A stretch of 64,000 bases of DNA from the NCBI GenBank assembly GCA_019454045.1, contig SKCR01023726.1:1-64000 (forward strand), read 5' to 3'. Source of the stretch: Zanthoxylum bungeanum. Taxonomy: Eukaryota; Streptophyta; Magnoliopsida; Sapindales; Rutaceae. Shown one piece after another: positions 5,541 through 53,020 of the stretch (the first letter of the stretch is position 1; each line of letters begins with the position of its first letter). Position numbers and translations under genes: made by a program. The notes under the pieces are model-generated. The model was not told the origin of the DNA and did not search any database. It saw nothing but the letters and a program-made list of their open reading frames with translations.

Positions 5541-5641
5541 CACACATCTATTACAACCTTTTTTTTTAAATCCTTAAACTCAAAACACTAATTGGATACG
5601 GATCACAAACAAACACTCTCTCCTCTATCTCTCTCTCTACA
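5541..5641 (+). promoter_or_regulatory. NSP2 5' untranslated region with CT-rich stretch
   Basis: The predicted leader contains a CT dinucleotide-rich run at about 5617-5640, directly before the ATG. No upstream ATG was seen between the predicted start site and 5642. Confidence 0.5.
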
Positions 5642-7165
5642 ATGAGTTCAGCCATCTCCATGGGCATGGACTTGGACGACTTCCTTCAGCTCGATTTCTC
5701 CGGCTACAGCTCCACCACCACCACTATCAATACTACAGGCGACGACTATGCCTGTGACTGGAACTTATCTCCAGTCGTAGACTGGGAAGCTTTATCCGGA
5801 GGGCAAGATGACTTTCACGACCTCATCGAGTCGATGATATTGATAGACGATAGAGGAATATTGAACCCTAATAATGCAACTTACGACCATGAACCATGCA
5901 ACTCTGTATCAACTGACACCACCACCAGTAGCAACAGCAACGTCATGATGGCGGTAGATGAAGAAACAAACAACGGCGAGGATTTCAAGGGCTTGAGGTT
6001 AGTCCATCTCTTGATGGCTGCTGCTGAAGCCCTAACCGGCGTCAACAAAAGCCGTGAACTGGCTCGTGTGATATTGGTTCGGCTCAAGGAGTTGGTGTCC
6101 CCTAACGACGGTACCAACATGGAAAGATTGGCGGCGTATTTTACCGACGCCTTACAAGCCTTGCTAGAAGGCGCCGGGGGTGTACATAGCAACAACAAAC
6201 ATTTCTTAACCAACGGGCCCCACCACCGTGACGATCATCATCACACGGACGTGCTTGCGGCCTTCCAATTGTTACAAGACATGTCCCCGTTTGTTAAGTT
6301 CGGTCACTTCACTGCCAATCAAGCGATCCTTGAAGCTGTAGCCAATGACAGGAGAGTCCACATAGTTGATTATGATATCATGGAAGGGATTCAATGGGCG
6401 TCATTGATGCAAGCGTTGGTTTCTAGAAAGGATGGCCCACCGACCCCACATCTAAGGATCACGGCGTTATCTAGGGGAGGCAGCGGTACTAGGCGTTCGA
6501 TCAGCACCATTCATGAAACGGGGCGTCGTTTGGTAGCGTTTGCAGCGTCAATTGGCCAACCATTTTCTTTTCATCTGTGTAGATTGGACTCTGATGAAAC
6601 GTTTAAGCCATCGGCTTTGAAATTGGTGAGGGGAGAAGCGTTGATTATCAATTGCATATTACATCTACCCCACTTTAGTTACCGGGCCCCCGATTCGATT
6701 GCTTCGTTTTTATCTGGAGCCAAGACCTTGAACCCGAGATTGGTGACTTTGGTTGAAGAAGAGACCGGATCCATTGGAGATGGCGGGTTCGTGGGCCGGT
6801 TCATGGACTCATTGCACCATTACTCTGCTGTTTATGATTCACTCGAGGCTGGGTTTCCAATGCAGAGTCGGGCTCGGGCTTTGGTGGAAAGAGTGTTCTT
6901 GGGGCCCCGAATATGTGGGTCATTAGCGCGGATCTACAGGACACGTGGAGAGGAGGAGGGTTGCTCATGGGGGGAGTGGTTTGCTGAGGTCGGGTTCAGG
7001 CCAGTTAATATAAGCTTCGCCAATCATTGTCAAGCAAAGCTATTACTGGGATTATTTAATGACGGATATAGAGTGGAGGAATTGGCCAATAATAGGCTTG
7101 TTTTAGGGTGGAAATCTCGGCGTTTGCTTTCAGCTTCTGTGTGGACTTCTACTTCATATTCTTAG
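5642..7165 (+). CDS. NSP2: GRAS transcription factor NSP2
   Basis: The frame encodes 507 aa in a single exon. An acidic, Ser/Thr-rich N-terminus (about 1-115) is followed by a complete GRAS domain. Leucine heptad I covers about 118-180. The VHIID-type motif reads VHIVDYDIMEG at 239-249. Leucine heptad II covers about 290-345, the PFYRE region about 355-420, and the SAW region about 425-507, ending near SRRLLSASVW. The N-terminal DDFLQLDFSG and SPVVDWEA blocks, the His-rich loop at 195-201 and HFTANQAILEAVA match legume NSP2 as I know it. The start is the first ATG after the leader. A second Met at residue 7 and a third at 9 are possible alternatives. NSP2 is a nuclear regulator that partners NSP1. 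It is needed for rhizobial nodulation signalling in legumes and, more widely, for mycorrhizal colonisation and strigolactone biosynthesis gene expression. No frame break is visible. Its GC content is higher than the flanks. Confidence 0.95.
   Translation: MSSAISMGMDLDDFLQLDFSGYSSTTTTINTTGDDYACDWNLSPVVDWEALSGGQDDFHDLIESMILIDDRGILNPNNATYDHEPCNSVSTDTTTSSNSNVMMAVDEETNNGEDFKGLRLVHLLMAAAEALTGVNKSRELARVILVRLKELVSPNDGTNMERLAAYFTDALQALLEGAGGVHSNNKHFLTNGPHHRDDHHHTDVLAAFQLLQDMSPFVKFGHFTANQAILEAVANDRRVHIVDYDIMEGIQWASLMQALVSRKDGPPTPHLRITALSRGGSGTRRSISTIHETGRRLVAFAASIGQPFSFHLCRLDSDETFKPSALKLVRGEALIINCILHLPHFSYRAPDSIASFLSGAKTLNPRLVTLVEEETGSIGDGGFVGRFMDSLHHYSAVYDSLEAGFPMQSRARALVERVFLGPRICGSLARIYRTRGEEEGCSWGEWFAEVGFRPVNISFANHCQAKLLLGLFNDGYRVEELANNRLVLGWKSRRLLSASVWTSTSYS
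6066..6085 (+). promoter_or_regulatory. Predicted miR171h target site in NSP2
   Basis: The segment encodes ARVILVRL, in the N-terminal part of the GRAS domain. Compared with the complement of miR171h as I remember it, the 20-nt core has one mismatch and one G:U wobble. In Medicago, miR171h cleaves NSP2 mRNA and limits mycorrhizal colonisation. The same position and reading frame are conserved here. The match was made by eye. Confidence 0.75.
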
Positions 7166-24789: not shown

Positions 24790-25132
24790 TGGCAGTCCAC
24801 AACTTGGTTTTGGCCTTTTTGGGTGACGGTACCTAGACCCGGTTATGGTTATGGTTCGGAATTAAAACTGAACCAGTCAAAATCGTAACCGGACTGGTTC
24901 GGTTACAGTTTGAGGACTTTTAGAACCGCCTAACAAGCGATTCTAACGGTTCTAAAATGGAACTTAAGGTTCCGATTTGGAACCTGTCTTTTGCATGTTA
25001 CCGTTGTCATGCAACGGTATAATGGGATGTGCAAGAAACAACCCCAAAAATGAGGTTGTGCCTGCATTATTTTTTTAAAAAAAATTAAATAAAAGATAAA
25101 TATTATAAAATCCTAAATTACTAAAATACCCT
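24790..25132 (+). mobile_element. 5' part of a hAT-like DNA transposon
   Basis: It holds many GGTTCGG / AACCGG-type words (24836-24990) and a GCAACGGTATAATGGG block, as in the subterminal regions of plant hAT elements. It ends in ACCCT, which is repeated at 35634, where a TATA box and transposase remnant follow. The Athila-type element thus sits between the promoter-distal end and the promoter of this hAT copy. The exact terminal inverted repeat was not identified. Confidence 0.5.
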
Positions 25133-27172
25133 TGACCGGTGCGTAATCACATGCGTATAACGCAAGCGCACGTATCGCTCAAGTAGTATAAAAAGTATCG
25201 ATCCCACGAGGACTTAATACCTAAGCTATTAATTTATGAAGCCAAATTTTTTCGAGTATCTAATGGATTTATTGTTTGATTGGATAGTGACTTTAAAATT
25301 AAAACAAGTAAATGAAAATAGCGCGAAAGTAGATTAAGGAAAATTCAATATTATTAAACTATCCAGGGTTGTGAATTCTTCCAATACCTTTTTAAAGATA
25401 AAGTGGTTATTTCATGTTTGTGTAATATACTGGTTTACTAACCTGGAACACGAAATTCTGCAAAAGCCTATGTCGATGGTCAGATGCAAATACCCAGTGT
25501 AACCCAATTAAATCATATGTCTATGTCAACCAAGTTACCTGAATTCATTAAGATTAAGTTATAATTATGGCTACCTCCGCCCAACAGGTATATGTCTATC
25601 ATGTAAGGAAATCTATTAAAGGGTTATCTATCCTCAAGGAAGATCGTGGGCTATTAAGTCTAAGGCTGAAACCTAAAATTCCTTCGTCAAATTTATTTTA
25701 AGTTTACCCGATCAATCTTACTAGTGACCAGTTAACTAGAAGCATTAACCTTAAGACTTAATAAGTAAACCCTTATATTACCCAAACTATAAAATAACCC
25801 CTTATAAACCGGTGATATTAGATTTCATCACAACCCCAGATAACGGGCTTAGCTACGACAAATATTTACAACTACTAAAAGCTTAAAAATAAAAGACATA
25901 AAGTAAAGTGCTGAAAAGTAAATGATGGAAATTAAAAAGGTAAAAGTACAATGAAAGAAAATGTTGGGGTTAAAGGATTCACTTCTATTACTACTATTTT
26001 AGATATCTCTCTTAATATAATATATTAACTTGTGTGATATTACCAACCAGCCATATAGGCGGTAACCTGATTAAGTCAAATTAATAATTAATTACCAACC
26101 GACCAACCAAGCGGTATCCATGCTTAGTCAGGTTAAAAATAATTTATAAATAATTACCAACCGGCCAATATAGCGGTATCCTCATTAAGTCAGGTTTTAA
26201 ATAGTTATTATATTATAATTAAGGGAGATTAATCTAAATAGTAATAATAAAAGCTTTACATTTTACCCCAGCAGGGGGGAGTTACCTCCTCATTACTGAA
26301 AAGTAAAAACTGAAAAAGTAAAGAAATGTAAGTATTGTGCGTAAAAGTAAATAAAATTAATTACAGAACAAAAATTAAAAAAATAATATATAATCTTCTT
26401 AGTATTCTTAAGGAATTACAGAGAAGAAGGTATGGATCTGAAATGGAAAATTTGGCCTGAATTTATAGGCATCAGTAGGCCTAACGCGTCGCGACGCGGT
26501 ACCCTTGGCGCGTCGCGACGCACCGTGATTTACGGCGAGAATTTTAGATCTTACGACACGTGACAGGCGACGCCGGAAGCTGAATGATTACTCAATAATT
26601 GTGATGACATGGCGATGATGTGGCGATGTGGATTTTCGGCAGCATGTGATGGTGACACGTGGCATAAGATGATTAGCTGATGATGACGTGGCTGACACAT
26701 GGCAAGCTGACTTGGCATGTGACTGATATGGATGCCATGTGGCTGACACATGGACGACATGTGCCGATGTCGATTGTTGGCAGCATGTGATGATGACACG
26801 TGGCATGGCGTACGTTAGCGGATCTGCTCTGATGTTGACATGTGGCAGGCGCACGTTAGCAAGTGCGCATGTTAGCAGACTTCTCAGATTTTGACACGTG
26901 TCTCGACATATTTTAGCAAGATTCAGCGCACGTTAGCAAGGTCTAGCGCACGTTAGCGGTCGCGACGTAGAAGGCTTGCACGTTCAAATTACTGTTTTAC
27001 CATTTTTGTCTGTTTTTCACTGTTTTGGCCCTGAATTGCTTCCAGAGAGTCCTGAAATTTTATTTATCTACAAAATAACACAAAACACATTAAAATATTC
27101 ACAAAACACAAGAAACTATACAAAATATTAGGTCAAATGAGTGGGAAATAGTGATACATCTACGACTCATCA
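25133..27172 (-). repeat. 3' LTR of the Athila-type element
   Basis: 2,040 bp. On the minus strand it begins TGATGAGTCG and ends GGTCA. It contains a triple sub-repeat (about 26035-26205), a pair of GCGTCGCGACGC palindromes (26485-26525), a TATAAATTCAG-type TATA box on the minus strand near 26460, and three CACGTG sites. Confidence 0.85.
26035..26205 (-). repeat. Three sub-repeats inside the Athila-type LTR
   Basis: Units start with ATTACCAACCrgCCAA, carry a GCGGTAtcC block and end with TTAAGTCAggTT. They are spaced about 50-65 bp and recur in the other LTR at about 34500-34665. Confidence 0.8.
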
Positions 27173-27737
27173 CAACCTCAAACCTAACATTTTGCTAGTC
27201 CTCGAGCAAAACAACAAAATAAAATAACATAAACATCTTTAAAATAAAATTAAGCTAAGCCACTTTCGTAGGGATCACGGTTGCATTTAGCGTATGCAAC
27301 AAGCCTTTAAACCCCTAGGTGTCCCTAGTGGACGAGTTGTAGTCTCGTGATGGCTTACAGCAACGATACCCACAAACGTTTTACAAAAGTAAAAAGATAG
27401 TAAAACTAATGCACACAAAAATAAAAAGACAAGAGAAAATAGAATAAAGAAGTTAGTGACTAACCAGGTGAAACTTTTTATCCAAGTTTAGAGTTGTTTT
27501 CTTTCTTTCTAAATTACTGAATAGGTAAATTCTCCGATTATTTTTACCATTCTCCATACACACATCCAATAAAATATTAATTAACTCATTTTTTTCCCAC
27601 AATAGTCACAAGTGTAGTTGAAAAGAAGGTAATATTTTTGTCCTAAAGTTATATCAGAATCACACCTTTTTTAAGCAATGGAATATTTTTCTGATTTTTC
27701 TGTTTTTTTTTTTAATTTATATACAATATCTTACATC

Positions 27738-27970
27738 CATGTAGTGAGCTTTAGGCCAGTGACTCCCAAACCAGTTGTCTTTAGGGCACTAGGTGTTAAG
27801 ACACCCCTACGGACTTAATTACTCTGACTTCAGATATATATTTTTTTTTCCTAACATCTTCGATCCATGTAGCGAGCTTTAGGCCAGTGACTCCCAAACC
27901 AGTTAGCTTTAGGGGCACCATGTGTTAAAACACCTCTACGGACTTAATTACTCGGATCTCAGACGTGTTT
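27738..27970 (-). repeat. 128-bp tandem repeat, two copies
   Basis: CATGTAGtGAGCTTTAGGCC starts at 27738 and 27866, and both units run through a CTACGGACTTAATTACTC block. It lies between the LOG-like frame and the 3' LTR, in what would be the element's 3' untranslated region. Confidence 0.85.
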
Positions 27971-28357
27971 TTTTTTATCCCATCGCTTTTTTAAGATGCT
28001 TCCTCCAATTAAACTAGAGCACTAAATATTACAAACTTTTCAATTACAACTCATGTCCGTATGTTACCATGTATGTTGATAATATATGTCAATTGAGTAT
28101 ATTAAGATTCTTTTAGTCAATATTATGGAGAATTTACAAATTAAATAATTCAAAAGGAAATAAATAAAAATTAACTTGTTCCGAAATAGGTTGAGATACG
28201 TCTCAGGAGTAGAAACTCCTTACACAGCTATCTCACATCAATTTCACCTGATTAATCGAATTAAAAACACAAAAACACAAAATATTTTTTTGAATTTTTC
28301 GAAAAATTTTGGACTAAAAATAAAAACAACATAAAAACAAGATACTAGTCAATTATT

Positions 28358-28458: not shown

Positions 28459-29091
28459 TTAAAGATTAAGATCGAGATTTATCCGACGTTTTTTACCACG
28501 ATCATTATCAGACCAGTTTATCTTGGAAATGATAGGGTCAATTTGTGGTTCAAATGCTAAGATTTGGTCAATTAAATCTGGGGCCGTTCTGGCAGTGAAA
28601 ATGATTTCTTTTAAAGGTTTTGACACGAACTCATTTCTCCGGGCATCATCAAGAAATACACAAATAAAATCATAGAATCCATCAGCGTTAAACAGTCCAA
28701 TTGGTTTCTAGTGTATGTTCAAGTTCGCCCAAGATAGTACTGTAAAGATTTCCTCCATTGTACCCAAGCCACCTGGCAAAGAAATAAAAGCATCAGCACG
28801 ATTAATCATTTCTACCAGTCGTTCAGACATACCTGGCACGATCAGCTCTTCTTCGTTTGATGATCCTATCAGATTCGCCTCCGCCAAAGGTTTTGGGATG
28901 ATTCCCAATACTTGACTGCCTCCATCCTGTACAGCCTTTGAAACGATTCCCATTAGTCCAAGATTGCCACCGCCATATACTAGGTGCATATTCCTTTCAA
29001 CTAAGACTCGACCCAATTCATGTGCTGCCTCTACGTATTGTGGCTTAGTACCAACACTAGTACCACAAAGACACAGATATTTACAACTCAT
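28459..29091 (-). pseudogene. LOG-like: LOG-like cytokinin-activating enzyme, one in-frame stop
   Basis: The frame has 210 codons plus a terminal TAA, with no intron, no frameshift and a single TAG at codon 128. LOG enzymes (lysine decarboxylase-like Rossmann fold, cytosolic) cleave ribose 5'-phosphate from cytokinin nucleotides to give active bases. Visible landmarks are CKYLCLCG at 3-10, YGGGNLGLMG at 39-48, VLGIIPKPL at 61-69, GMSERLVEM at 87-95 (keeping the Arg but with Leu for the usual Lys after it), and the signature PGGLGTMEE at 106-114. After the stop the frame continues with KPIGLFNADGFYDF, family-like to the end and with a basic tail. Plant LOG genes have several introns, so an intronless copy suggests capture through RNA. 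It lies on the sense strand between integrase and 3' LTR, inside the TSD-bounded element. No poly-A tail follows it. Confidence 0.85.
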
Positions 29092-29376
29092 CTTCTTGAA
29101 GTGGCTTCCATTTTATGTATGTTTCTTTTCTCAAATCTGGATGCCTTCAAAAGTGCAAAGATTAGTTAAATTTATAACACCTGAAAGGGGTGAGTAATAA
29201 TAGCACTAGTATCTTCCAAAGAACGATTATTAGCAAAACAATAAAAGAAATCGTGAAAGGTCAAAAATTTTGGATCTTGTCGGAGAAAATAAAAGAAAAT
29301 AATAAAACAAATCATAATTATTATGAAAAGATAAAGAGATATAATATTTACAGGTCGTAACAGCTTTGAATGACGT

Positions 29377-29925
29377 CTATGCGTGAGGGACAAGCTTCTT
29401 ATCCAATTTTCTTATAAATTGGCAAACAGGGTCTTTTAGAGTTAGATTCCCGAGACTTAATTGTTGTCTTTCTTTTCGGAATTGTGTATATAACAAGCGA
29501 ATTTCGTGATACACATTTCCACTGGGATGCGTCTCAGAAGACTTAGATATGTCATCCAAAGACTCCTTACTCAGGTCATCCCTAATGAAATTAATCTTAT
29601 CTTCACGGTTATCAGACACCATTCCTAAATAACGACAACGAGTATTACAAAACATACGAGCACATTTATAGCATACACCCATTCTTTTGGCTCTTCTCTT
29701 TTTAGCATAGGTGCTTCTTCCTAAACCAGACATGTGTGAAATAAAAGAGTCAGAAGACTCACCTGCCAATCGGACCCGTGCTTCAATAATCCAACAAATG
29801 TCATTATGAATACCTTTGATCATCAGTAGTCTCATCCGTTCCAAGCGAGCTTTGTAGATCTTCATCAGAGAATTTTGAGGGAGAGAAGGAAATTGCTTGT
29901 GAAGATTTGCGAGAACTTCTTCCAT
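29377..29925 (-). CDS. 182-aa Cys-motif protein in the env position, function unknown
   Basis: An uninterrupted frame encoding 182 aa lies directly after pol and before the LOG-like frame, on the element's sense strand. I do not recognise a named family. Visible are a helical N-terminus with a FPSLP segment (12-16), a basic stretch at 74-83 (AKKRRAKR, possible nuclear targeting), a C-x2-C-x4-C-x3-C motif at residues 85, 88, 93 and 97 that could bind zinc, and a charged C-terminal half. No signal peptide or membrane segment is seen, so it does not look like an envelope protein. The ATG at 29923-29925 lies 2 nt after a TTTCAG, a plausible splice acceptor. Because it is open while pol is broken, it may have been under recent selection or simply been lucky. 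Confidence 0.6.
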   Translation of the reverse strand: MEEVLANLHKQFPSLPQNSLMKIYKARLERMRLLMIKGIHNDICWIIEARVRLAGESSDSFISHMSGLGRSTYAKKRRAKRMGVCYKCARMFCNTRCRYLGMVSDNREDKINFIRDDLSKESLDDISKSSETHPSGNVYHEIRLLYTQFRKERQQLSLGNLTLKDPVCQFIRKLDKKLVPHA

Positions 29926-30059: not shown

Positions 30060-31200
30060 CGAACGTTAGGCTGGATCTGAAAGTATGACACTTTCTTTTT
30101 GTCGCTCAAATGATTCTCCCCAATAGTGCTTGACACGCTGACTGTTAACCTTGAATGTTTCGTTAGTGTTGGGATCAAGTAACTCAACAGCTCCATATGG
30201 TAAAACCTAAGTGATCACAAATGAACCTGACCATCTTGATTTCAACTTTCCAGGGAAAAGTTTCAACCTTGAATTGTACAACAATACCTGCTTCATTGGT
30301 TCCAATTGTCTGCGCACTATTTTTCGATCATGTCATTTCTTGGTCTTTTCCTTATATAATCTGACATTCTCATAAGCCTGTAGGCGAAATTCCTCCAATT
30401 CATTGAGTTGGTGAAGTCGATTCTCTCATGCTGCTTGTGGATCAAGATTTAACTTCTTCAGTGCCCAGTACACCTTGTGTTCAAGCTCAACTGGCAGATG
30501 GCATGCTTTCCCAAACACCATTCGATATGTGGACATACCAATGGGTGTTTTGTAAGCTGTCTGGTAGGCTCATAGTGTGTCATCCATTTTTATAGACCAG
30601 TCCCTCATTGTTGATCCAACGGTTCTCTCCAAGATTTTTTTGATCTCCCTGTTTGAAACTCCAACCTGTCTGTTTGACTGTGGGTGGTAAGCAGTGTCAA
30701 CTTTATGAGTAACTTCGTATTTGGATATGATTGCATCAAAATATTTTTTGCAGAAATGTGTGCCACCATCACTGATAATAGCCCGAGGTGTTCTGAAGCG
30801 AGTGAAAGTATTCTTTTTAAGGAATTTGATCACCACTTTTGAATTGTTTGATGGCAGTGCAATTGCTTCAACCCATTTGGAGACGTAGTCTACCACAACT
30901 AGTATGTACAGGTTTCCGAATGATGGAACAAAGAGTCCTATAAAATCAATCCCCCATACATCGAATATCTCCACTTCTAGAATGTTTTGCAAAGGTCTTT
31001 CACTTCTCCTCGAAATATTTCCCGTTCTCTGGCATCTGTCACATTGAAGAGAAAACAAGTAAGCATCTTTAAAAAAAAGTGGGCCAGAACAAACCTTATT
31101 GTAGGACTTTGGTTGTAGTTTTGTTTCCGCTGAAGTGTCTGCCATATGGTGATGAATGACAATGTTGCAGAACATTGTTGACCTCCTCATGTGGAACACT
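30060..31200 (-). pseudogene. Athila-type integrase, broken
   Basis: Integrase inserts the element's cDNA into the host genome. The zinc-finger region is degenerate (HHH near 31140 and CDRCQRTGN near 31030). The core retains GIDFIG and SDGGTHF with the two catalytic Asp. The expected Glu, 36 residues after the second Asp, is Gly (QVGVSNREIK). The main frame stops at about 30570. Beyond that, family-like C-terminal sequence (VLLYNSRLKLFPGKLKSRWS) continues to about 30070 through further stops. Confidence 0.8.
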
Positions 31201-31297
31201 GTCTCAATAATTGATCAGCACAATGTTTGAACAAGTACGGCTCATCCCAAATATAGTGTTTGACTTCTTTGAATAACTTCTTTCGTTGCTGAGTTGT

Positions 31298-32740
31298 TCA
31301 TTCCAATGGCCATTTTCTCGATACTATATAGTTGACATAGTCAGCATACCAATGGACATCATACTGTTTCATGGCAAACAACTGTTCATCAGGAAAAGTT
31401 TCTTTGATTGTCAATTCTTTGCCAACTATTTCTCCATTCTCGAGCCTCAATAAATGATCTGCCACTTGGTTTTCTGTCCTTTTCTTGTCTCGAATCTCCA
31501 CGTCAAATTCTTGTAAAAGAAGTATCCAACGGATCAATCTGGGTTTGGCATCTTTCTTCGTAATCATGTATTTGATTGCTGAATGATCTGTGTAGACCAC
31601 CACTTTGGAACCCAGCGGATAGGATCGAAATTTATCAAAAGCGAACACAACTGCGAGCAACTCCTTTTCAGTGGTTGTGTAGTTGAGTTGAGCTTCATTC
31701 TGAGTTCTGGTGGAGTAATAAATGGTGTGGAAAACTTTTACTTTGCGTTGTCCCAAAACTGCACCTACAGCAAAATCACTAGCATCGTACATCACCTCAA
31801 ATGGAAGGGTCCAGTCTGGTGCTACAATGATATGAGCAGAAACCAGCTTCTGTTTTAGGATCTCAACAGCTTCGTGACATTTTTTGGTGAAGTTGAAAGG
31901 CACATCCTTCTCCAGAAGATTACACAGAGGTTTAGCAATCTTGGAAAAGTCTTTGATAAATCTCCTGTAAAAACCAGCATGTCCAAGAAAGCTCTGAATC
32001 CCTTTAACAGATGTTGGTGGAGGTAATTTTTCAATTGTCTCGATCTTTGCTTTGTTTACCTCGATTCCCTTTTGTGAGATTCGATGTCCAAGGACGATGC
32101 CTTCATGCACCATGAAGTGGCATTTATCCCAGTTGAGTACCAGGTTAGTATCTTCGCATCTTTGTAACACATGTTCCGGATTTTGCAAACAGTGGTCGAA
32201 AGAGTCTCCAAACACAGAGAAATCATCCATGAAAACCTTCATACTTTGTTCCAGCATGTCTGAGAAGATAGCCATCATGTAACGTTGAAATGTGGCAGGA
32301 GCATTACATAGTCCAAATGGCATCCTGCGGAAAGCAAAAGTACCATACGGACATGTAAAAGTGGTTTTCTCCTGATCTTCGGGGGCGATGGCTATCTGAT
32401 TGTACCCCGAGTAACCATCCAAAAAATAATAAAATTCATGTCCCGCCAGTCTGTCTAGCATCTGATCAATTAATGGCAGCGGAAAATGGTCATTCCTTGT
32501 TGCTTTGTTCAGCTTCCGGTAGTTCATGCATACCCTTCATTCAGTCACTGTTCTTGTTGGAATTAGCTCATTCTTTTCATTTGTGACTACAGTAATTCCT
32601 CCTTTCTTTGGCACACACTGCATAGGACTCACCCAAGTGCTGTCAGAGATGGGGTAAATGATGCCAGCATCCAACCATTTGATAATTTCTTTCTTCACGA
32701 CCTCCTTCATGATTGGATTGAGTCTTCGTTGATGCTCCAC
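31298..32740 (-). pseudogene. Athila-type reverse transcriptase and RNase H, one stop
   Basis: This region copies the element RNA into DNA. The upstream part (32740-32537: LDAGIIYPISDS, VPKKGGITVV) ends in one in-frame TGA just before VCMNYRKLN. The rest, 409 codons, is open from 32527: [19 protein letters not shown], the active-site block [20 protein letters not shown], then RNase H with [13 protein letters not shown] and TDHSAIKYM. It ends at 31298, short of the integrase frame, with a further break between them. Confidence 0.85.
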
Positions 32741-32749
32741 TGTGGGTTG

Positions 32750-33980
32750 TTACTCATCATTCATCAGAATCTTGTGCATGCAAAATGATGGACTAATGCC
32801 TCGAATGTCTAATATAGTCCAGCCAATGGCTTTCTTGTGTTCTCGTAACACTCTTAGAAATTTTTCTTCCTGCTCCAATATTAGCGACGAAGAAATAATC
32901 ACAGGTAATTCAGAAGAATTTCCTAAGAATACATATCTGAGATGGCTCGGAAGTAACTTCAGCTCCAGTTGTGGTGGTTCTTCAATCGAAGGTTTGATTC
33001 GCTCCTTCTTCGGGAGTTCCAGGCTTTCAACTGGTGGTGTCGATTTGAAACGAAATGGCTTGTCAAGATAGTTGATACATTCCAGAATTTCAGCATCTAG
33101 CTCGATGTCAGTCATATTGGTGATGCAAGCTTCAAGTTTATCCGTGGGAGGTGGTTCAGTATCCTGGATGATACTATCAACAACATTAACTCTGAAACAT
33201 TCTTCTTTCTTTTCATCACTCGGGAATTTCATGGCTTTGAAAACATTGAAGGTAGCTTCTTGGTTCTGAACTTTCATGGTTAGTTATCCTTTTTGCACAT
33301 CAATAACAGTTCGACATGTAGCCAAAATGGTCTCCCAAGGATGATAGGTACATCTTTGTCTTCTTCCATATCAAGGATAATAAAATATGCTGGGAGAATG
33401 ATTTTGTCAACTTTGACCAGCATATCTTCAACAACTCCTCTCGGAAATACGAGCGTTCTATCCGCAAGTTACAGAAAGACTGAGGTAGGCATTGCTTCTC
33501 CAATTTACAGTTTCCTGTAAATAGAAAAATGCATTAAATTAACACTTGCACCTAAGTCACATAAAGCCTTACCGATGTAATGTTCTCCAATGGTGCATGG
33601 GACAGTGAAACTGCCAGGATCATTCAAATTCGGGGGAAGTTTTCTCTAAATGATGGCGCTGCATTCTTCCGTTAATACTACTGTCTCATAATCTCCCAAT
33701 CTTCTTTTTCGTGAAAGAATGTCTTTCATGAATTTCACATAGCTGGGCATTTCTTCCAACGTTTCTGCAAATGGGATGTTGATGTGCAGCTTTTTGAAAA
33801 CCTCCAAGAAACGGGCAAACTGCTTGTCCAGTTTGTTTTTCTGAAGACGCTGTGGAAAAGGTAGATGTGGAGTGATTTGATCTTTTTCCTTTGCTTCTTT
33901 TTCCTCCATCTGTTGCTCTGCTTCTTTTTGAACTTCTTCAATGGATGCCTTGATTCCAACATCTTTGTTGATTTCAGTAC
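32750..33980 (-). pseudogene. Athila-type gag C-terminus and protease, broken
   Basis: The segment 33909-33646 (KNKLDKQFARFLEVFKKLHI, MPSYVKFMKDIL) is the conserved stretch upstream of Athila proteases. The protease active-site region reads LCDLGASVNLM near 33535-33560, with Asp-Leu-Gly in place of the common Asp-Ser/Thr-Gly, as is usual in Athila. Frames change at about 33510 and 33290. A 175-codon linker frame (33277-32750) leads to RT. The N-terminal gag is absent because sequence upstream is deleted at 33980/33981. Confidence 0.75.
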
Positions 33981-35633
33981 CATATGTCTATGTCAACCAA
34001 GTTACCTGAATTCATTAAGATTAAGTTCCAATTGTGGCTACCCCAACCCAACAGGTATATGTCTATCCTGTAAGGAAATCTATTAAAGGGTTATATATCT
34101 TCATGGAAGATCGTGGGCTATTAAGTCTAAGGCTGAAACCTAAAATTCATTCGTCAAGTTTATTTTAAGTTTACCCGATCAATCTTATTAGTGGCCAGTT
34201 AACAAGAAGCATTAAGCTTAAGACTTAATAAGTAAATATTTATATTACCCAAACTATAAAATATCCCCTTATAAACTGGTGATATTGGATTTCATCACAA
34301 CCCTAGATAACGGGCTTAGCTACGACACATATTTACAACTACTAAAATCTAAAAATAAAAGACATAAGGTAAAGTGCTGAAAAGTAAATACTGGAAATTA
34401 AAAAGGTAAAAGTACAATGAAAGAAAATGTTGGGGTTAAAGGATTCACTTCTATTACTACTATTTTAGATATCTATCTTAATATAATATTAACTTGTGTG
34501 ATATTACCAACCAGCCATATATGCGGTAACCTGATTAAGTCAAATTAATAATTAATTACCAACCGACCAACCAGGCGGTATCCATGCTTAGTCGGGTTAA
34601 AAACAATTTATAAATAATTAGCAACCGGCCAATATAGCGGTATCATCATTAAGTCAGGTTTTAAATAGTTATTATATTATAATTAATGGATATTAATCTA
34701 AATAGCAATAATAAAAGCTTTACATTTTACCCCAGCATGGGAGAGTTACCTCATCATTACTGAAAAGTAAAAACTGAAAAAGTAAAGAAATGTAAGTATT
34801 GTGCGTAAAAGTAAATAAAATTAATTACAGAATTAAAATTAAACAAACAAGATATAATCTTCTTAGTATTCTTAAGGAATTACAGAGAAGAAATTATGGA
34901 TCTGAAATGGAAAATTCGGCCTGAATTTATAGGAGTCAGTAGGCCTAGCGCGTCGCGACGCACTACCCTTGGCAGGTCGTGATGCGCCGTGATTTGCGGC
35001 GAGAATTCTGGATCTTGCGAGACGTGGCAGGCGGCGCCGGCAGCTGAATGATTACTCAATAATTATGATGATGTGGCGATGTGGATTGTCAGCAGCATGT
35101 GATGGTGACACGTGACATAAGATGATTGGCTGATGATGATGTGGCTGACACGTGGCAAGCTGACTCGGCATGTGACTGATATGGACGCCACGTGGCTGAC
35201 ACGTGGATGACATATGGCGATGGCGATTGTCGGCAGCATGTGATGATGACACGTGGCACGGCGCACGTTAGCGGATCTGCTCTGATGTTGACACATGGCA
35301 AGCGCATGTTAGCAAGTGCGCATGTTAGCAGACTTCTCAGATTTTGACACATGTCCCGACATATTTAAGCATGATTCGGCGCACGTTAGCAAGGTCCAGC
35401 GCACGTTAGTGGTCGCGACACAGAAGGCTTGCGTGTTGCGACGCCCAAATTATGATTTTGCTCTTTTTATCCATTTTTCACTGTTTTAGCCCTGAATTAC
35501 TTCCAGATAGTCCTGAAACTTTATTTATCTACAAAATAACACAAAACACATCAAAATATTCACAAAACTCAAGAAATTATATAAAATATTAGGTCAAATG
35601 AATGGAAAATAGTGATACATTTACCATTCATCA
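33981..35633 (-). repeat. Truncated 5' LTR of the Athila-type element
   Basis: Colinear with 25514-27172 of the other LTR (1,653 against 1,659 bp). The 381 bp equivalent to 25133-25513 are missing at the junction with gag. It carries five CACGTG G-boxes at 35109, 35149, 35189, 35200 and 35250. The two LTRs are clearly diverged. Confidence 0.85.
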
Positions 35634-35692
35634 ACCCTTATAACAACTATGACTGTAGGATATTTTGGCATAGTAAATTTATCCAAAAAACC

Positions 35693-37058: not shown

Positions 37059-37313
37059 AAAAAACCTCTAGCGGACAATGTAGCTGACCCACTCACAAAG
37101 CCAATGAGCCAAGAACAAATAGAGCGTCATCTTGAGAAGATGGGCATTGGGTATCAAAACAATTGGCTTTAGTGCAAGTGAGAGTTTGTTAAAGTGTATG
37201 CCCTAAAATCAGTTATGGATGTAATGGTTTAAGGCATAATGTTTGTAAGAGAGTTTATTATTTAATTAATAAAAGGTATTTGTTATCTACACATTGTTAC
37301 ATTCATATTTTAT
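37059..37313 (+). mobile_element. 3' end remnant of a second copia family
   Basis: 37059-37172 encodes ADNVADPLTKPMSQEQIERH and LEKMGIGYQNNWL, the C-terminus of a copia RNase H, ending in TAG. A purine stretch (GTGAGAGT) and an LTR start, TGTTAAAGTGTATGCCC at 37187, follow. The LTR runs about 127 bp before the join at 37314 to a different copia integrase. Confidence 0.7.
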
Positions 37314-39739
37314 GTGTAAAAGCCCGAGGTGGTTTTGAATACTTTGTCACTTTCATTGACGATTATTCCAGATATGGGTATGTTTACCTAATGCAGCACA
37401 AGTCAGATACATTTGAAAAGTTCAAAGAGTATCGTGCTGAGGTTGAGAACCATTTAGGTAAAAGCATCAAAATTCTACGATCAGATCGTGGAGGAGAATA
37501 CCTTGATAGAGATTTCGAGGAATTCTTAGTTGAGCATGGAATTATTTCACAGCTCAAAGCACCTGGAACACCACAACAAAATGGTGTTGCAGAAATGAGA
37601 AATCGAACCCTACCAGACATGATAAGATCAATGTTTAGTTATAGCACTCTACCTAGTTCATTCTGGGGGTATGTATTACAAACTACAATGTATATCCTGA
37701 ATGTAGTTCCTTCTAAGTGTGTTTCTAAGAATCCCTTAGAGTTGTGGAATGGTCGTAAAGCTAGTTTGCGACATTTTCGCATATGGGGGTGTCCGGGACA
37801 TGTGCTAAAGAACAAGACTACTAAGTTGGAACCACGTTCACAGGTGTGCCTATTTGTAGGCTATCCTAAGGAAACTAGGGGTGGATTCTTTTATAGTCCA
37901 GAAGATAATAAAGCATTTGTGTCGAAAAAGGCTACATTTCTTAAGGAGGACTATATGAGAGAGTTCAAAACTCAAAGTAAAGTGTTACTTGAGGAGTTAC
38001 TTGCTGGTACGACCAGTACACCATTGTCAAATGTTGACAAAGACATAACATCTTCTACATCTGAAAGTCAGATGCAAGTTTATCAGGATACCATACCACC
38101 TAGACGTAGTGGGAGGGTTGTAAGACAACCTGAACGCTATCTAGGAAATGGTGAGGTGCAAGTTGTTGCATTTTATGATGGTATAGATGATCCATTGACC
38201 TATCATAGTGCAATGGAATATACTGATAAAGAGGAATGGCTTAAAGCCATGAACCTCGAGATGGAGTCTATGTACTCTAACTCAGTCTGGGAACTTGTAG
38301 ACCAACCTAATGGAGTAAAACCCATAGGTTGCAAGTGGATCTACAAGAGAAAAAAAGGAATAGATGGGAAAATACAGACTTTCAAGGCTAGGCTAGTGGC
38401 AAAGGGTTATACCCAAAAAAAGGGAGTTGACTATGAAGAAACTTTCTCGCCAGTAGCCATGCTTAAATCCATCAGGATTCTTCTTTCCATTACCGCATAT
38501 TATGACTATGGGATTTGTCAAATGGATGTCAAAACTGCATTCTTGAATGGTAATCTTAATGAGAGTATCTATATGGTACAACCAGAGGGGTTCATTACTC
38601 AAGGTCAAGAGCAAAAAGTTTACAAGTTGCAAAGGTCCATTTATGGACTTAAGCAAGCATCTAGATCTTGGAACATAAGGTTTGATACTACGATCAAGTC
38701 TTATAACTTTGAGTAGAACATCGATGAGCCTTGTGTCTACAAGCGCATCATTGATGGGAATGTGGTTTTCCTTGTGTTATACGTTGATGATATTTTACTC
38801 ATTGGGAATGATGTAAAGATATTATCGGACGTGAAAATCTGGCTAGCTAACCAATTCCAAATGAAAGATTTGGGAGAGGCAAGTTATGTACTTGGGATCC
38901 AGATCATTGGGATCGCAAGAAACAACTGTTAGCAATGTCTCAAGCAACCTATATCGACAAGATTATTGTGCGATTTGGTATGCATAATTCCAAGAAAGGT
39001 AATTTACCTTTCAGGCATGGAATTCATTTGTCTAAGGAACAGTCTCCGAAGACACCTCAAGCAGTTGAGGAGATGAGACATATACCATATGCTTCAGCAG
39101 TTGGAAGTCTTATGTATGTTATGTTATGCACGAGACCAGACATCTGTTTTACAATGGGAGTACTACTACTAGGTTTCATTCCAACCTAGGATTAGATCAT
39201 TGGGTAGCGGTGAAACATATTCTCAAGTATCTTCGGAGAACGAGAAATTATATGCTTGTATATGCAAGTCAGGATATGATTCTGAGAGGATATACAGACT
39301 CTGATTTTCAGAAGGATGTCGATTCTAGGAAATCAACATCGGATCAGTGTTCACCCTAGGTGGTGGGGCTATAGTATGGAGGAGTATTAAGCAATCTTGT
39401 ATTGTTGACTTCACCATGGAGGCTGAATATGTAGCAGTTTGTGAAGCAGCTAAGGAAGCGGTTTGGCTCCGTAAGTTCTTGGCAGATCTGGAAGTTGTTC
39501 CAGATATGGATAAACCACTCACACTTTATTGCGATAATAGTGGTGCAATGGCGAACTCCAAAAAACCGAGAAGCCACAATATGGGTAAGCATATTGAGAA
39601 AAAATATCACCTCATCAAGGAAATAGTGCAGAGAGGAGATGTCGCTGTCACGCAGATTCCATCCACAGACAACCTGGCTGATCCGTTTACAAAGACCTTC
39701 TCGACTAAAGTATTTGAAGGTCACCTAAATGGTTTATAA
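37314..39739 (+). pseudogene. Truncated copia pol, copy A
   Basis: Sequence colinear with 45193 onward in copy C begins here, inside integrase (RGGFEYFVTFIDDYSRYGYV), so gag, protease and the first integrase Asp are absent. It retains SDRGGEY, NGVAEMRNR, the GAG-like linker with RRSGRVVRQPERYLG, RT (CKWIYKRKKGID, FLNGNLNESIY) and RNase H (39347-39739: CDNSGAMANSKKPRSHNMGK). An in-frame TAG lies at 38714-38716. The YVDD active-site block is intact near 38780, and a 1-nt deletion relative to copy C lies near 38906. It ends with TAA at 39737. Confidence 0.85.
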
Positions 39740-43671: not shown

Positions 43672-44527
43672 ATGGCATCTGCAATAATCTCTATTATCAA
43701 ACAACAAGAAAAATTAATTGGGGATAATTATGTTAAATGGAAAGTGACATGAATGTTATCTTGGTCTGTGAAGACCTTAAATTTATCCTAATGGAGGAAT
43801 GTCCTCCTGAGCCAGCACCTAATGCTGGCAGAGCTGCACGTAATGCCTATAATAATGGATTAAAGCTGATGAGAAAGCCCATAGCTATTTTATAGCATCC
43901 ATGTCTGAGGTTCTTGCTGCACAGCATGAGCCTATGGCGACAACATCAATGATTATGCAGTCATTACATAACATGTTTGGGCAACCTTCAGACCGACAAC
44001 AACATGAAGCAATTGCCTCTGTATTGACCGCTAGAATGAATGAAGACACATCAGTCTGAGACCATGTGTTAAGGATGATGGCTCATCTTAATATGGTTGA
44101 AACCCATGGTGCACGTATTAATGTGCAAAGCCAGGTGACAATGATCATGGAAACCCTTCTGAAGAGTTTCCTGCAGTTTAAGAGCAAATATTCTATGAAC
44201 AAGTTGACTTTCACATTGACTGAACTGCTAAATGAGCTCACCAATTATGAGTCTGTTATGAACGGTCCTCGTAGGCCCAATGCCGAGGTAAATGTTGTCG
44301 AATCTTCTAAATTTGCAAAGAATAAGAAGAAGAAGTGCAATTGGAAGGCAAAGGCAAATCCAATGAAAAAGAATGACAATAAAAGCTCCAAATGAACCAA
44401 TGCCAAAGGAAAATGTTTCCATTGTGAACAACAAGGGCATTGGAAAATTAATTGTCCAAAATACCTTGCAGAGATTAAAGAGAAGAAGAATACAGGTAAA
44501 TATGATTTACTTGTCATTGAGTCTCTT
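43672..44527 (+). pseudogene. Copia gag, copy C, broken
   Basis: The structural gene begins MASAIISIIKQQEKLIGDNY at 43672 and goes out of frame within 30 codons (TGA at about 43750). Family-like segments persist in shifting phases to MMAHLNMVETHGARINVQSQ (44075 on) and LTFTLTELLNELTNYE (44208 on). After a stop at 44393 come the nucleocapsid zinc knuckle CFHCEQQGHWKINC (about 44412-44453) and the linker to protease. At least three breaks are visible. Confidence 0.75.
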
Positions 44528-47062
44528 TTGGTGGAGGATGATAAATCCATATGGATTGTTGATTCTGGTGCCACTAACCATGTTTGTTGTTCTTTGCAAC
44601 TACTTGACTCATTGAGGGACCTTACTGAAGGTAGTTTTACCATGAGAGTTGGGACAGGGGATGTTGTTTCAGCAAGAGCAGTGGGACTTTCAAATTTGAA
44701 TTTTAATAAAAGTTATTTATGTTTGAATGGTGTGCTATATATTCCTAGTTTTCGCAGGAATTTGATTTCTGTAACAAAACTTATGGAATATGGTTTTTTT
44801 GTTTCGTTTAATAATAAGTCAGCTATTATTATTAGAAATGGATTAAATATATGCACGGGAAACTCCGAAAATAATCTATATGTATTAAAGTCGTTAATGC
44901 ATGAATCACTGATTAATACTGAAATGTTTAAGATTAAAAAATCTAAAACTAAACGGCAAAAGATTTCTCATGATGATATCTATTTATGGCACTTTAGACT
45001 TGGTCACATTAACCTTGACCGGATAGATAGACTAATTAAGAACAGAGTATTAAATCAGTTAAAACTTGGTATTTTACATGTCTACGAATCCTGTCTAGAA
45101 GGCAAAATGACCAATAGACCTTTTACTGGAAAAGGGATAAGAGCCAAAGAAACTCTTGAGCTAATACATTCGGATGTTTGCGGACCAATGAATGTAAAAG
45201 CCCGAGGTGGTTTTGAATACTTCGTCACTTTCATTGATGATTATTCCAGATATGGGTATGTTTACCTAATGCACCACAAGTCAGATACATTTGAAAAGTT
45301 CAAAGAGTATCGTGCTGAGGTTGAGAACCAGTTAGGTAAAAGCATCAAAATTCTACGATCAGATCGTGGAGGAGAATACATTGATAAAGATTTCGAGGAA
45401 TTCTTAGTTGAGCATGGAATTATTTCACAGTTCACAGCACCTGGAATACCACAACAAAATGGTGTTGCAGAAAGGAGAAATCGAACCCTACCAGACATGA
45501 TAAGATCAATGTTTAGTTATAGCACTCTACCTAGTTCATTCTGGGGGTATGTATTACAAACTACAATGTATATCCTGAATGTAGTTCCTTCTAAGTGTGT
45601 TTCTAAGAATCCCTTAGAGTTGTGGAATGGTCGTAAAGCTAGTTTGCGACATTTTCGCATATGGGGGTGTCCGGGACATGTGCTAAAGAACAAGACTACT
45701 AAGTTGGAACCACGTTCACAGGTGTGCCTATTTGTAGGCTATCCTAAGGAAACTAGGGGTGGATTCTTTTATAGTCCAGAAGATAATAAAGCATTTGTGT
45801 CGACAAATGCTACATTTCTTAAGGAGGACTATATGAGAGAGTTCAAACCTCAAAGTAAAGTGTTACTTGAGGAGTTACTTGCTGGTACGACCAGTACACC
45901 ATTGTCAAATGTTGACAAAGACATAACACCTTCTACATCTGAAAGTCAGATGCAAGTTTATCAGGATACCATACCACCTAGACGTAGTGGGAGGGTTGTA
46001 AGACAACCTGAACGCTATCTAGGAAACTGTGAGGTGCAAGTTGTTGCATTTTGTGATGGTATAGATGATCCATTGACCTATCATAGTGCAATGGAATATA
46101 CTGATAAAGAGGAATGGCTTAAAGCCATGAACCTCGAGATGGAGTCTATGTACTCTAACTCAGTCTGGGAACTTGTAGACCAACCTAATGGAGTAAAACC
46201 CATAGGTTGCAAGTGGATCTATAAGAGAAAAAGAGGAATAGATGGGAAAATACAGACTTTCAAGGCTAGGCTAGTGGCAAAGGGTTATACCCAAAAAAAG
46301 GGAGTTGACTATGAAGAAACTTTCTCGCCAGTAGCCATGCTTAAATCCATCAGGATTCTTCTTTCCATTGCCGCATATTATGACTATGAGATTTGTCAAA
46401 TGGATGTCAAAACTACATTCTTGAATGGTAATCTTAATGAGAGTATCTATATGGTACAACCAGAGGGGTTCATTACTCAAGGTCAAGAGCAAAAAGTTTG
46501 CAAGTTGCAAAGGTCCATTTATGGACTTAAGCAAGCATCTAGATCTTGGAACATAAGGTTTGATACTACGATCAAGTCTTATAACTTTGAGCAGAACATC
46601 GATGAGCCTTGTGTCTACAAGCGCATCATTGATGGGAATGTGCTTTTCCTTGTGTTATACGTTGATGATTTTACTCATTGGGAATGATGTAAAGATATTA
46701 TCGGACGTGAAAATCTGGCTAGCTAACCAATTCCAAATGAAAGATTTGGGAGAGGCAAGTTATGTACTTGGGATCCAGATCATTCGGGATCGCAAGAAAC
46801 AAATGTTAGCAATGTCTCAAGAAACCTCTATCGACAAGATTATTGTGCGATTTGGTATGCATAATTCCAAGAAAGGTAATTTACCTTTCAGGCATGGAAT
46901 TCATTTGTCTAAGGAACAGTCTCCTAAGACACCTCAAGCAGTTGGGGAGATGAGACATATACCATATGCTTCAGCAGTTGGAAGTCTTATGTATGTTATG
47001 TTATGCACGAGACCGGACATCTGTTTTACAATGGGAGTACTACTACTAGGTTTCAATCCAAC
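44528..47062 (+). pseudogene. Copia pol, copy C, first part
   Basis: Protease, integrase, RT and RNase H are translated as one polyprotein in copia elements. Protease shows DSGATNHVCC (44561 on), and GAG-pre-integrase LWHFRLGHINLDRI lies at about 44985. Integrase carries HSDVCGPM, SDRGGEY and NGVAERRNR. RT shows FKARLVAKGYTQKKGVDYEE and FLNGNLNESIY. A 719-codon frame runs to 46687, where a 2-nt deletion compared with copy A sits in the YVDD block and shifts the frame. The sequence continues in another phase (46690-47062) until the LARD insertion. Upstream protein sequence extends before 44528, so the first Met there is internal. Confidence 0.85.
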
Positions 47063-47067
47063 CTAGG

Positions 47068-50692: not shown

Positions 50693-51339
50693 AACCATAC
50701 CACATTGAGCACGGAAAAGCAACTGCAGGCATAACTAAGATATCTAGGTTGGTTTGACCCATCGATCCCGATTTTTGAAACGAAATCATTGAGTTAGCTT
50801 ACTTAAGGATCAAGCTGCAAAGGAACCTTTGCACACACACACTTTGAGTCTGGCATAGATCATTTATTCAAAAACTCAGATTTGAGTTTCATTGAGTGTT
50901 TTGAATGTTCTCTGGTTTCATTACTGGACATTCCTTGAGGACGATAATATGTATAACTATTGGGACTATTTCGTAGCATGTGATATAGTATGATGATATG
51001 GAAGGCCCCAACATGTGGTTCATCTTGACTAAATGCAAACAGCGGAGAACAGAAAGCTAAATCAAGACTGGGAGCGACCAGTCTACCACCTCGTGAATCC
51101 GGGAGATAACAAGAAATTGAGCCATGAGACCAGAGAGAATACTGTGCAATCACCTGGAGAACTGGCGGAAGACCTAACCCAACGGAATAGGAAATTCATT
51201 CATGCATGCATGCATACACGTAACATATTTTGCATTCTTTTTTGTGTTTGTTTTGCTTTATATTCACAGGTTTTGAAGAATAAAAAGAAAAGCGGCAAAG
51301 ACAAACCAATCAGAAGCAGCAACAGTACAGTCAGTTTCA

Positions 51340-51794
51340 GAAATGAATCAGTTTTGGGGATGAGTCCCAGGGTTCAGGCCCATATCAGTTTCAGTATTGG
51401 GGATGAGTCCCAGGGGCGAGGCCCATATCAGTATCAGTTTGGGGCGAGGCCCACATCACTCTGGGGGTGAGGCCCACATTATCATCAGCATCAATAGCAG
51501 GCTTGCCGGGTATGGCATTCTGGGGGCGAGGCCCACATTGGTTCAGTATTAGTTATGTCGGGTATGGCATTCTGGGGGCGAGGCCCACATTGGTTCAGTA
51601 TTAGTTCTGCTGGGTATGGCATTATGGGGCGAGGCCCACATTGGTTCAGTATCAGTTATGCCAGGTACGGCACTCTGGATATAGAGATATCAGATCAGTT
51701 CTGCCAGGTACGGCACTTCGGGTATGGAGATATCAGATCAGCTCTGCCAGGTACAGCACTCTGGGTATGGAGATATCAGATCAGTTCTGCTAGG
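51340..51794 (+). repeat. Minisatellite block 1 of the LARD
   Basis: Variable copies of GGGGCGAGGCCCACAT, GGTATGGCATTCTGG and GGAGATATCAGATCAG words with periods of roughly 40-60 bp. Confidence 0.75.
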
Positions 51795-51982
51795 TATGGT
51801 AATCCGAGAATGGATCAGAGTTCGAGAATGAACAAGCCAGGAATGGTAATCCGAGAATGGATCAGAGTTCGAGAATGAACAAGCCGAGAATGGTAATCCG
51901 AGAATGGATCAGAGTTCGAGAATGAACAAGCCATGAATGGTAATCTGAGAATGGATCAGAGTTCGAGAATGAAAGCCGGGAA
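51795..51982 (+). repeat. 47-bp tandem repeat, four copies
   Basis: AATGGTAATCCGAGAATGGA units start at 51795, 51842, 51889 and 51936, near-identical and in phase. Confidence 0.9.
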
Positions 51983-52389
51983 TGACACTCCGAGAATGGA
52001 GCACGGTTCGGGAATGGATCACCTCACAGCACGGTTCGGGAATGGACCACCTCATAGTAACAGTTCGAGAATGGACCACCTCACAGTAACGGTTCAGGAA
52101 TGAACCATCTCATACAGTACAGTTCGGGAATGAACCATTACATCAGCATCAACATCAGTTTTGGGGATGAGTCTCAGGGTCGAGACCCATATCAGCATCA
52201 ACATCAGTTTCGGGGATGAGTCCCAAGATCAAGACCAACGTCGATATCAGTATCAGTTTTTGGGATGAGTCTCAGGGTCGAGGCCCACATCCGTTACAGT
52301 ATCAGTTTCGGGGATAAGTCCCAGGATTGAGACCCACATCAGCTACAATATCAAGTTTTGGGGGACGAGTCCCAAGGTCGAGGCCTATA

Positions 52390-52900
52390 TCATCATCTTC
52401 AGTAGTTTGGGGATGCGTCCCAGGGTTGAGACCCACATCATCATCTTCAGCAGTTTGGGGATGCGTCCCAGGGTTCAGACCCACATCATCGTAAGTATAT
52501 TCCAGTTTGGGGATGCGTCCCCGGGCCGAGGCCCACTTTGTCAGCGGTATTGGGATGCGTCCCAGGGTCGAGGCCCCCGTTGTCGGTTGCAGTTATTGGG
52601 ATGCGTCCCAGGGTCGTGGACCCACTGCATCAGTTTGGGGATGCGTCCCCGGGCCGAGGCCCATTTTGTCAGCGGTATTGGGATGCGTCCCAGGGTCGAG
52701 GCCCCCGTTGTCGGTTGCAGTTATTGGGATGCGTCCCAGGGTCGAGGCCCACTGCATCTTTGGTTTTTGGGATGCGTCCTAGGGTCGAGGCCCACATTGT
52801 CAGCGGTATTGGGATGCGTCCCAGGGTCGAGGCCCCCGTTGTCGGTTGCAGTTATTGGGATGCGTCCCAGGATCGAGGTCCACTGCATCATCACTTCAGT
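52390..52900 (+). repeat. GGGATGCGTCC minisatellite with 128-bp higher-order unit
   Basis: GGGATGCGTCCCAGGGTCGA monomers of about 40-45 bp. From 52503, three successive variants repeat together every 128 bp (starts 52503, 52631 and about 52759). Confidence 0.85.
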
Positions 52901-53006
52901 TCGAGGCAACAGGCGAGTCATGTGGCAGCTGGCGAGCCAGGTAAGTAAAAATGCATTGCATAATTTTGATAGGATTGTCACTGTTACACATTACACAAGT
53001 CCCATC

Positions 53007-53020
53007 AAAGTGGGGGCGAC
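53007..53020 (+). other. Polypurine tract of the LARD
   Basis: AAAGTGGGGGCGAC abuts the 3' LTR start TGTAGAC. Confidence 0.65.

Follow-up and report, generated by a model that had tools for sequence, protein, structure and literature searches.

Extra open reading frames are common in plant retrotransposons, and whether they act is rarely clear. The question recurs in a 64,000-nucleotide stretch of the Zanthoxylum bungeanum genome (hereafter the window), where a frame resembling the LONELY GUY (LOG) enzymes of plants lies inside an Athila-type retrotransposon: is this frame a gene of the element, is it kept by selection, and is its product likely to retain the chemistry of the family?

LOG inside such elements is already known from Citrus and poplar. 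A LOG-type YgdH domain is present in LTR-retrotransposon consensuses of C. sinensis and C. clementina and, with a filter switched off, also in elements of P. trichocarpa, according to the accessible text of PMC9289625, which cites Steinbauerova et al. 2011 for LOG-like extra ORFs. These elements resemble the one described here in that a LOG-family gene sits in a Gypsy-type element, and their proteins fall in the clade of the window family. New relative to the accessible account of them are the copy number, the selection on LOG, its retention in carriers that lack pol, the change in its pocket and a carlavirus-like neighbour, none of which we found in print in the literature searched. A comparable case in the accessible text of PMC9289625 is the AlkB/2-ODD m6A demethylase of Phalaenopsis Gypsy elements, likewise a host-type enzyme ORF kept by a plant LTR retrotransposon, although it is a different enzyme, was found in that screen in Phalaenopsis only, and was tested there in vitro. 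The extra ORFs of sunflower Athila elements are described as env-like or transposase-like (PMC11728184, accessible text), and the accessible text of the review PMC7264820 makes no mention of LOG, cytokinin or lysine decarboxylase. A search of the literature by title gave nothing else relevant on LOG in such elements.

The host element in the window

The element is read on the minus strand, in the order reverse transcriptase-RNase H, integrase, 182-aa ORF and LOG, and comprises the following features:

35634..35638, no strand: target-site duplication ACCCT, beside the 5' LTR
33981..35633, minus: 5' LTR, beginning TGATGA, inner end truncated
32750..33283, minus: 177-aa open stretch upstream of the reverse transcriptase, by position the gag-pol linker region, without a Pfam match
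31298..32536, minus: reverse transcriptase and RNase H (RVT_1, RT_RNaseH)
30570..31214, minus: integrase core (rve, PF00665)
29380..29925, minus: 182-aa ORF matching Carla_C4 and Viral_NABP
28459..29111, minus: LOG-like gene, broken in this copy (28459-29091 in the initial annotation)
27725..27980, minus: two imperfect tandem units of about 128 bp, downstream of LOG
25133..27172, minus: 3' LTR of about 2.04 kb, TGATGA...CCGGTCA
25128..25132, no strand: target-site duplication ACCCT, beside the 3' LTR

The layout is that of a Ty3/gypsy element, with reverse transcriptase-RNase H before integrase, LTRs and a 5-bp target duplication. As the initial annotation had it, LOG lies between the integrase and the 3' LTR in the same direction as the reverse transcriptase and integrase, and both ACCCT duplications are present. 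The two LTRs are 91.4% identical in their matched part (1,667 aligned columns), where positions 25514-27172 of the 3' LTR pair with the truncated 5' LTR. Next to the cut at 33981, the window copy lacks its primer site and the greater part of gag; in the sister copy L039 the 5' LTR is followed by the site TGGCGCCGTTGCCGGGGA, the same one that is deleted in the window, which we take to be of the tRNA-Asp type found in Athila and Tat. The label Athila is our working assumption, taken from the initial annotation, the position of the accessory ORF and the literature on LOG ORFs; Steinbauerova and colleagues reportedly described the LOG-carrying elements of Citrus and Populus as Athila-like in 2011.

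The rest of the window has, on its plus strand, several frames whose translations are Copia-type polyproteins (37193-39739, 44396-47066 and 55451-56200), some of them nearly identical to each other and therefore probably recent insertions. A 531-aa open frame at 5570-7165 (plus) has the appearance, by eye, of a GRAS-family (NSP2-like) host gene, and overlapping plus-strand frames at 51033-53123, built of repeated GMRPRVEAHI / CVPGSRP-like units, are probably a tandem repeat and not a gene.

A broken LOG gene in the window copy

Across the LOG interval the plus strand is full of stops, and the frame opens on the minus strand from 29091 to 28459. Profile searches match it to PF03641 (5e-34), PF18306 (7.5e-15) and TIGR00730 (3e-45, 154 bits with a cut-off of 96), and it matches the Arabidopsis LOG3 structure (PDB 2a33) at 4.9e-53; given the PF03641, TIGR00730 and 2a33 matches, the resemblance is not due to chance. 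With NF058542, the NCBIfam cytokinin-LOG equivalog (cut-off 300 bits), the window frame scores 104, and an Arabidopsis LOG control also falls below the cut-off at 132.

The initial annotation had described a frame of 210 codons with YGGGNLGLMG and PGGLGTMEE signatures, one TAG at codon 128, no intron and no frameshift. The length, the signatures and the TAG (codon number in that frame) stand, with the strand being minus, and no intron breaks the frame when it is aligned to 217-aa relatives. The claim of an unshifted frame does not hold. Related proteins begin with MEATSRRRVENICVFCGTS or MEATSRRRVENICVFCG, and the corresponding start in the window is at 29111, so the methionine chosen earlier is not the shared start; counted from that start, codon 8 of the window copy is TGA, and near codon 15, before CGTSVG, the frame is broken by one base. 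It is thus a dead fossil of an older accessory gene, more damaged than first described, and the suggestion that the gene was functional until recently applies to its sister copies and not to the window copy itself.

Thousands of copies, some without pol

The genome searched comprises 3.96 Gb in 51,709 contigs. A search with the LOG protein gave at least 150 places, the window included, the weakest listed at 2e-117; the alignment spans at least 203 of the 210 residues at every one of the 150 best-scoring places listed, and 114 of these have no internal stop by hand count. A 25-base LOG motif has 11,848 exact matches genome-wide, against none for the reversed motif. Since the window copy itself misses this motif by one base, the figure undercounts the copies, unless it is inflated by duplicated haplotypes, to which some sampled copies may belong (L045 and L039 are both 100% identical to the same query). 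The element family is therefore present in many thousands of copies, and the proposal of a LOG-family gene within an Athila-type element, common to its relatives and carried by other copies, is borne out.

Comparison of 36 distinct loci and of longer stretches revealed three architectures. In 22 of the loci the 182-aa ORF lies upstream of LOG, and 12 lack it and have a different ORF1 instead (matched in all 12), with L008 and L010 belonging to neither type; a common downstream piece follows LOG in 35 of the 36. Pieces matching the tandem units of about 128 bp are also doubled in many sister copies. Six 9.9-kb stretches (L039-L044) were read, so that three of the 12 ORF1-type copies are known from LTR to LTR. 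These three, L039, L040 and L041, have the layout ORF1-LOG with a complete LOG frame and an ORF1 whose stop-to-stop length is about 400-450 codons, and they are young, their LTR pairs being 99.2%, 99.0% and 98.6% identical, respectively. L042 and L044 contain gag-like ORFs, the 182-aa ORF and LOG. The reverse transcriptase and integrase of the window found no match at E 1e-5 in any of these five stretches; L043 alone matches both, so that among the carriers of the 182-aa ORF, too, only one of three long stretches bears pol. Thus pol was lost in at least two derivative types, both of which keep LOG. No Pfam domain reaches the cut-off in the ORF1 of these pol-less ORF1-LOG copies; by eye this ORF has a CCHC-type, gag-like knuckle, and it weakly matches the gag region of L044.

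Copies whose LOG start is altered have spread as a subfamily, too: L028, L029 and L030, three ORF1-type copies located on three contigs, do not differ in architecture or in the identity of their LOG to the reference, and in all of them the alignment begins at residue 10.

Selection on the LOG gene

We estimated dN/dS by simple pairwise counting (NG86), without a codon model, in three samples that overlap in part. The first consists of the 36 loci, of which six (L003-L008) were drawn by a DNA search with LOG itself and the rest by protein search, and therefore favours good LOGs. Here dN/dS is 0.205 (CI 0.15-0.26; 630 pairs). Taken separately, the 12 copies of the ORF1 type stand at 0.180 and the remaining 24 at 0.218, the latter group taking in all non-ORF1 copies and thus extending beyond the 22 with the 182-aa ORF. 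In 28 copies of this sample, where LOG stands at 0.20, the downstream noncoding DNA, read as codons in three frames, gave 0.56, 0.88 and 0.69; these control ratios, run on first-sample copies only, lie below 1, and the counting method therefore reads low. When LOG itself is read in its wrong frames, the values are 0.62 and 1.94. In the same 12 copies of the pol-less type, ORF1 stands at 0.612 against the value for LOG given above, and the 182-aa ORF at 0.41 (14 copies). In nine of the 36 copies (L009, L011, L013, L017 and L028-L032), the main-frame alignment does not begin before residue 10-16.

The second sample holds 20 copies out of 40 places matching the noncoding stretch that follows LOG in L039, plus L039. 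A full, stop-free LOG frame is found in eight of the 20 newly drawn copies, L039, the source of the query, being the ninth; dN/dS is 0.195 in these nine, 0.255 (0.17-0.37) in 14 copies, and 0.424 (0.33-0.54) in all 16 usable copies of the 21 (those with over 150 codons in a single frame), where the 16 include the most diverged copies, L055 and L059, and the 14 do not. The third sample of 20 copies took about every fifth of roughly one hundred motif places listed; four of its LOGs are full and stop-free, and 16 usable copies gave 0.348 (0.27-0.43), or 0.85, 0.45, 0.29 and 0.35 by pair divergence. This pattern is roughly what is expected if selection acts on the lineages that replicate and copies decay freely once inserted. 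The comparison of element-borne copies proposed by the initial annotation thus yields ratios from 0.20 to 0.42, below the noncoding control, and LOG is under purifying selection. It is also better constrained than its neighbour ORF and persists in parasite lineages that have lost pol. On the other side, most sampled frames are no longer intact (4/20 and 8/20 are), and the nine copies that align from residue 10-16, L028-L030 among them, speak against a strict need for LOG.

Could LOG nevertheless be a passenger that was taken up in a single event and has been carried along passively, with the apparent constraint arising from a few active masters and from the picking of well-preserved copies? 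The first sample was indeed picked by similarity to the query, 16 of the 20 motif-sampled copies are not full and stop-free, and copies with an altered LOG start have also been amplified. However, the constraint persists in samples that were not picked by protein score and is stronger in the more diverged pairs, and within the same 12 copies LOG and ORF1 differ sharply, as do LOG and its own wrong frames, which makes passive copying quite unlikely. That LOG is retained without pol, where cis-acting signals must be kept, would also fit a region preserved as an RNA or DNA signal for packaging, splicing or export; nevertheless, differences among the copies are distributed 30/14/57% over codon positions 1/2/3 and the element clade as a whole conserves its catalytic residues, so that the constraint acts at the level of the protein and the signal explanation is highly improbable. 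As for a later, separate insertion or a host LOG gene adjoining the element, nothing was found in its favour: the flanks are common to the sisters (the 182-aa ORF in 22 and the downstream piece in 35 of the 36 loci), LOG lies inside LTR pairs 98.6-99.2% identical in three elements, and this candidate is ruled out by the shared sister architecture. We therefore hold with considerable confidence that LOG is an old accessory gene of the element lineage, kept by selection.

Descent of the element-borne LOGs

A tree of 114 rows was built from 92 element-type LOGs, 20 canonical LOGs, AtLOG8 and one bacterial LOG; eight of the element-type rows come from the host genome, and the named ones from Xanthoceras, Acer, Dipteronia, Citrus, Populus, Diplodiscus and Reevesia. 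The split between the 92 and the 22 other rows has a support of 94/94, and when the bacterial row is left out, in a tree of 34 rows, 23 element-type rows separate from 11 canonical ones with a support of 100/100, the branch between them measuring 0.71 changes per site. We assign the element-type rows to several rosid families; as they form one clade in this sample, the capture looks old and not recent. These trees are read most simply as one old acquisition; their canonical rows are a narrow sample of top matches to an AtLOG3 query together with AtLOG8. The source of the gene was most likely a plant LOG gene, and an origin from a processed transcript, as initially suggested, would fit the absence of introns.

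Gene models of Acer and Citrus (P0107 and P0237) have the 182-aa ORF and LOG fused in one protein. For these two and for the host-genome copies, the evidence of element origin is direct; we infer it for the other rows, with the accessible text of PMC9289625 aiding the case for Citrus and Populus. Annotated poplar LOG genes, namely the Populus trichocarpa 'LOGL10' (P0041) and P0048, P0043 and P0044, lie inside the element clade. The poplar 'LOGL10' and several Xanthoceras, Acer and Citrus proteins may accordingly be transposon genes that have been counted as host LOGs.

A conserved catalytic core and an altered pocket

The element LOGs share with AtLOG3 and AtLOG8 the fold family, the PGGxGTxxE motif and the catalytic arginine and glutamate; unlike canonical LOGs, they are transposon-borne, exist in thousands of copies, lack introns and have three pocket residues mostly replaced. 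In the alignment, the catalytic arginine is present in 85 of the 92 element rows, the catalytic glutamate in 88 and each motif glycine in 90. The roles of these residues and of those of the adenine/prenyl pocket are taken from CgLOG and AtLOG3 as given in the accessible text of PMC4979012, where alanine changes in AMP-binding and catalytic residues, Ser19 excepted, nearly abolished activity; the adenine-binding lysine of CgLOG is among the residues so affected.

The pocket histidine, lysine and glutamate, each present in 20 of 20 canonical rows, are found in only 21, 10 and 10 of the 92 element rows, respectively, and in none of the eight rows from the host genome. They are all kept in the nine Xanthoceras/Acer-type rows, and the change in the pocket therefore came after the capture. 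In the remaining 83 rows, the main element clade, the histidine survives in 12 and the lysine and glutamate in one each, the replacements being mostly Ser for His, Leu/Ile/Met for Lys and His/Thr/Gln/Ile for Glu; the catalytic arginine (77/83), the catalytic glutamate (79/83) and the pocket tryptophan (82/83) are retained. Thus, as judged from the alignment, the core of the enzyme was kept while its side-chain pocket changed.

These replacements could mean that the enzyme was repurposed: still a phosphoribohydrolase, it would have a pocket unfit for prenylated adenine and would act on AMP, N6-methyl-AMP or an adenine-based immune signal. The near-complete loss of the three residues in the main clade beside an intact catalytic pair and tryptophan speaks for such a shift, as does its timing after capture; on the other side, the residues that took their place could tune prenyl binding rather than abolish it, and we consider repurposing unlikely, if a serious contender. 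The altered pocket makes the release of cytokinin, and with it the influence on host cell division that the initial annotation had envisaged, less certain, and the reading as a LOG-type hydrolase stands. The element LOG has probably remained a nucleotide hydrolase of the LOG type, one that acts on the physiology of the host; that its product is cytokinin itself is a tentative proposal, for which we would give slightly less than even odds.

The neighbouring 182-aa ORF

In the product of the 182-aa ORF, basic residues (KKRRAK) precede a cluster of four cysteines (C85-C88-C93-C97). The window copy of this ORF matches the Carla_C4 profile with 27.2 bits (cut-off 20.9) and Viral_NABP with 23.2 bits (cut-off 23). 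In an alignment of the window ORF with 19 of its at least 120 relatives, 20 of the 20 members match Carla_C4 and 19 match Viral_NABP at E values of 0.01 or lower, the best being 1.2e-8. Named relatives among the matches listed come from Xanthoceras, Populus, Rhamnella, Acer, Orobanche and Citrus; IMG/VR returned no relatives of this protein or of the LOG-like protein. The resemblance to the cysteine-rich nucleic-acid-binding proteins of carlaviruses lies in the basic stretch before the cysteine cluster and in Pfam matches above the gathering score, whereas the element protein differs in being a 182-aa retrotransposon ORF with a long predicted-helical N-terminus, which is of low confidence in an AlphaFold2 model with a mean pLDDT of 56.6. 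Carlavirus-type cysteine-rich proteins suppress RNA silencing in viruses, and for one of them, CVB p12, a role as a hyperplasia-inducing transcription factor has been described (PMC12172455, accessible text). A title search found no publication linking Carla_C4, Viral_NABP or carlaviruses with Athila elements. If the 182-aa ORF is truly of the carlavirus type, it would represent an exchange between the RNA-virus gene pool and a retrotransposon.

Such a pairing might even constitute a two-gene, host-acting toolkit of a rosid Athila lineage, in which a carlavirus-like, cysteine-rich zinc-finger protein accompanies a host-derived LOG that was retuned, once captured, to something other than the usual prenylated nucleotide. 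As LOG is the gene under the strongest protection by selection in the pol-less parasite lineages, the benefit would in that case go to the carrying copy or cell lineage. We regard this as a speculative and rather improbable extension.

A proposed role for the element LOG

The explanation that we favour as a whole, with a probability of about 0.7, is that LOG is a selected accessory gene whose product most likely still changes the hormone chemistry of the host. We propose that an Athila-type lineage took up a LOG-family gene long ago and that selection has retained it. In cells that express the element, it would supply a LOG-type nucleoside-monophosphate hydrolase, which would shift the chemistry of adenine-derived hormones by releasing cytokinin bases from riboside monophosphates, possibly with an altered side-chain preference. 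Such cells may divide more or stay meristematic, and more new insertions would then reach the germ line. An accessory gene that outlives pol makes the idea of a transposon steering the hormone or nucleotide chemistry of its host directly testable.
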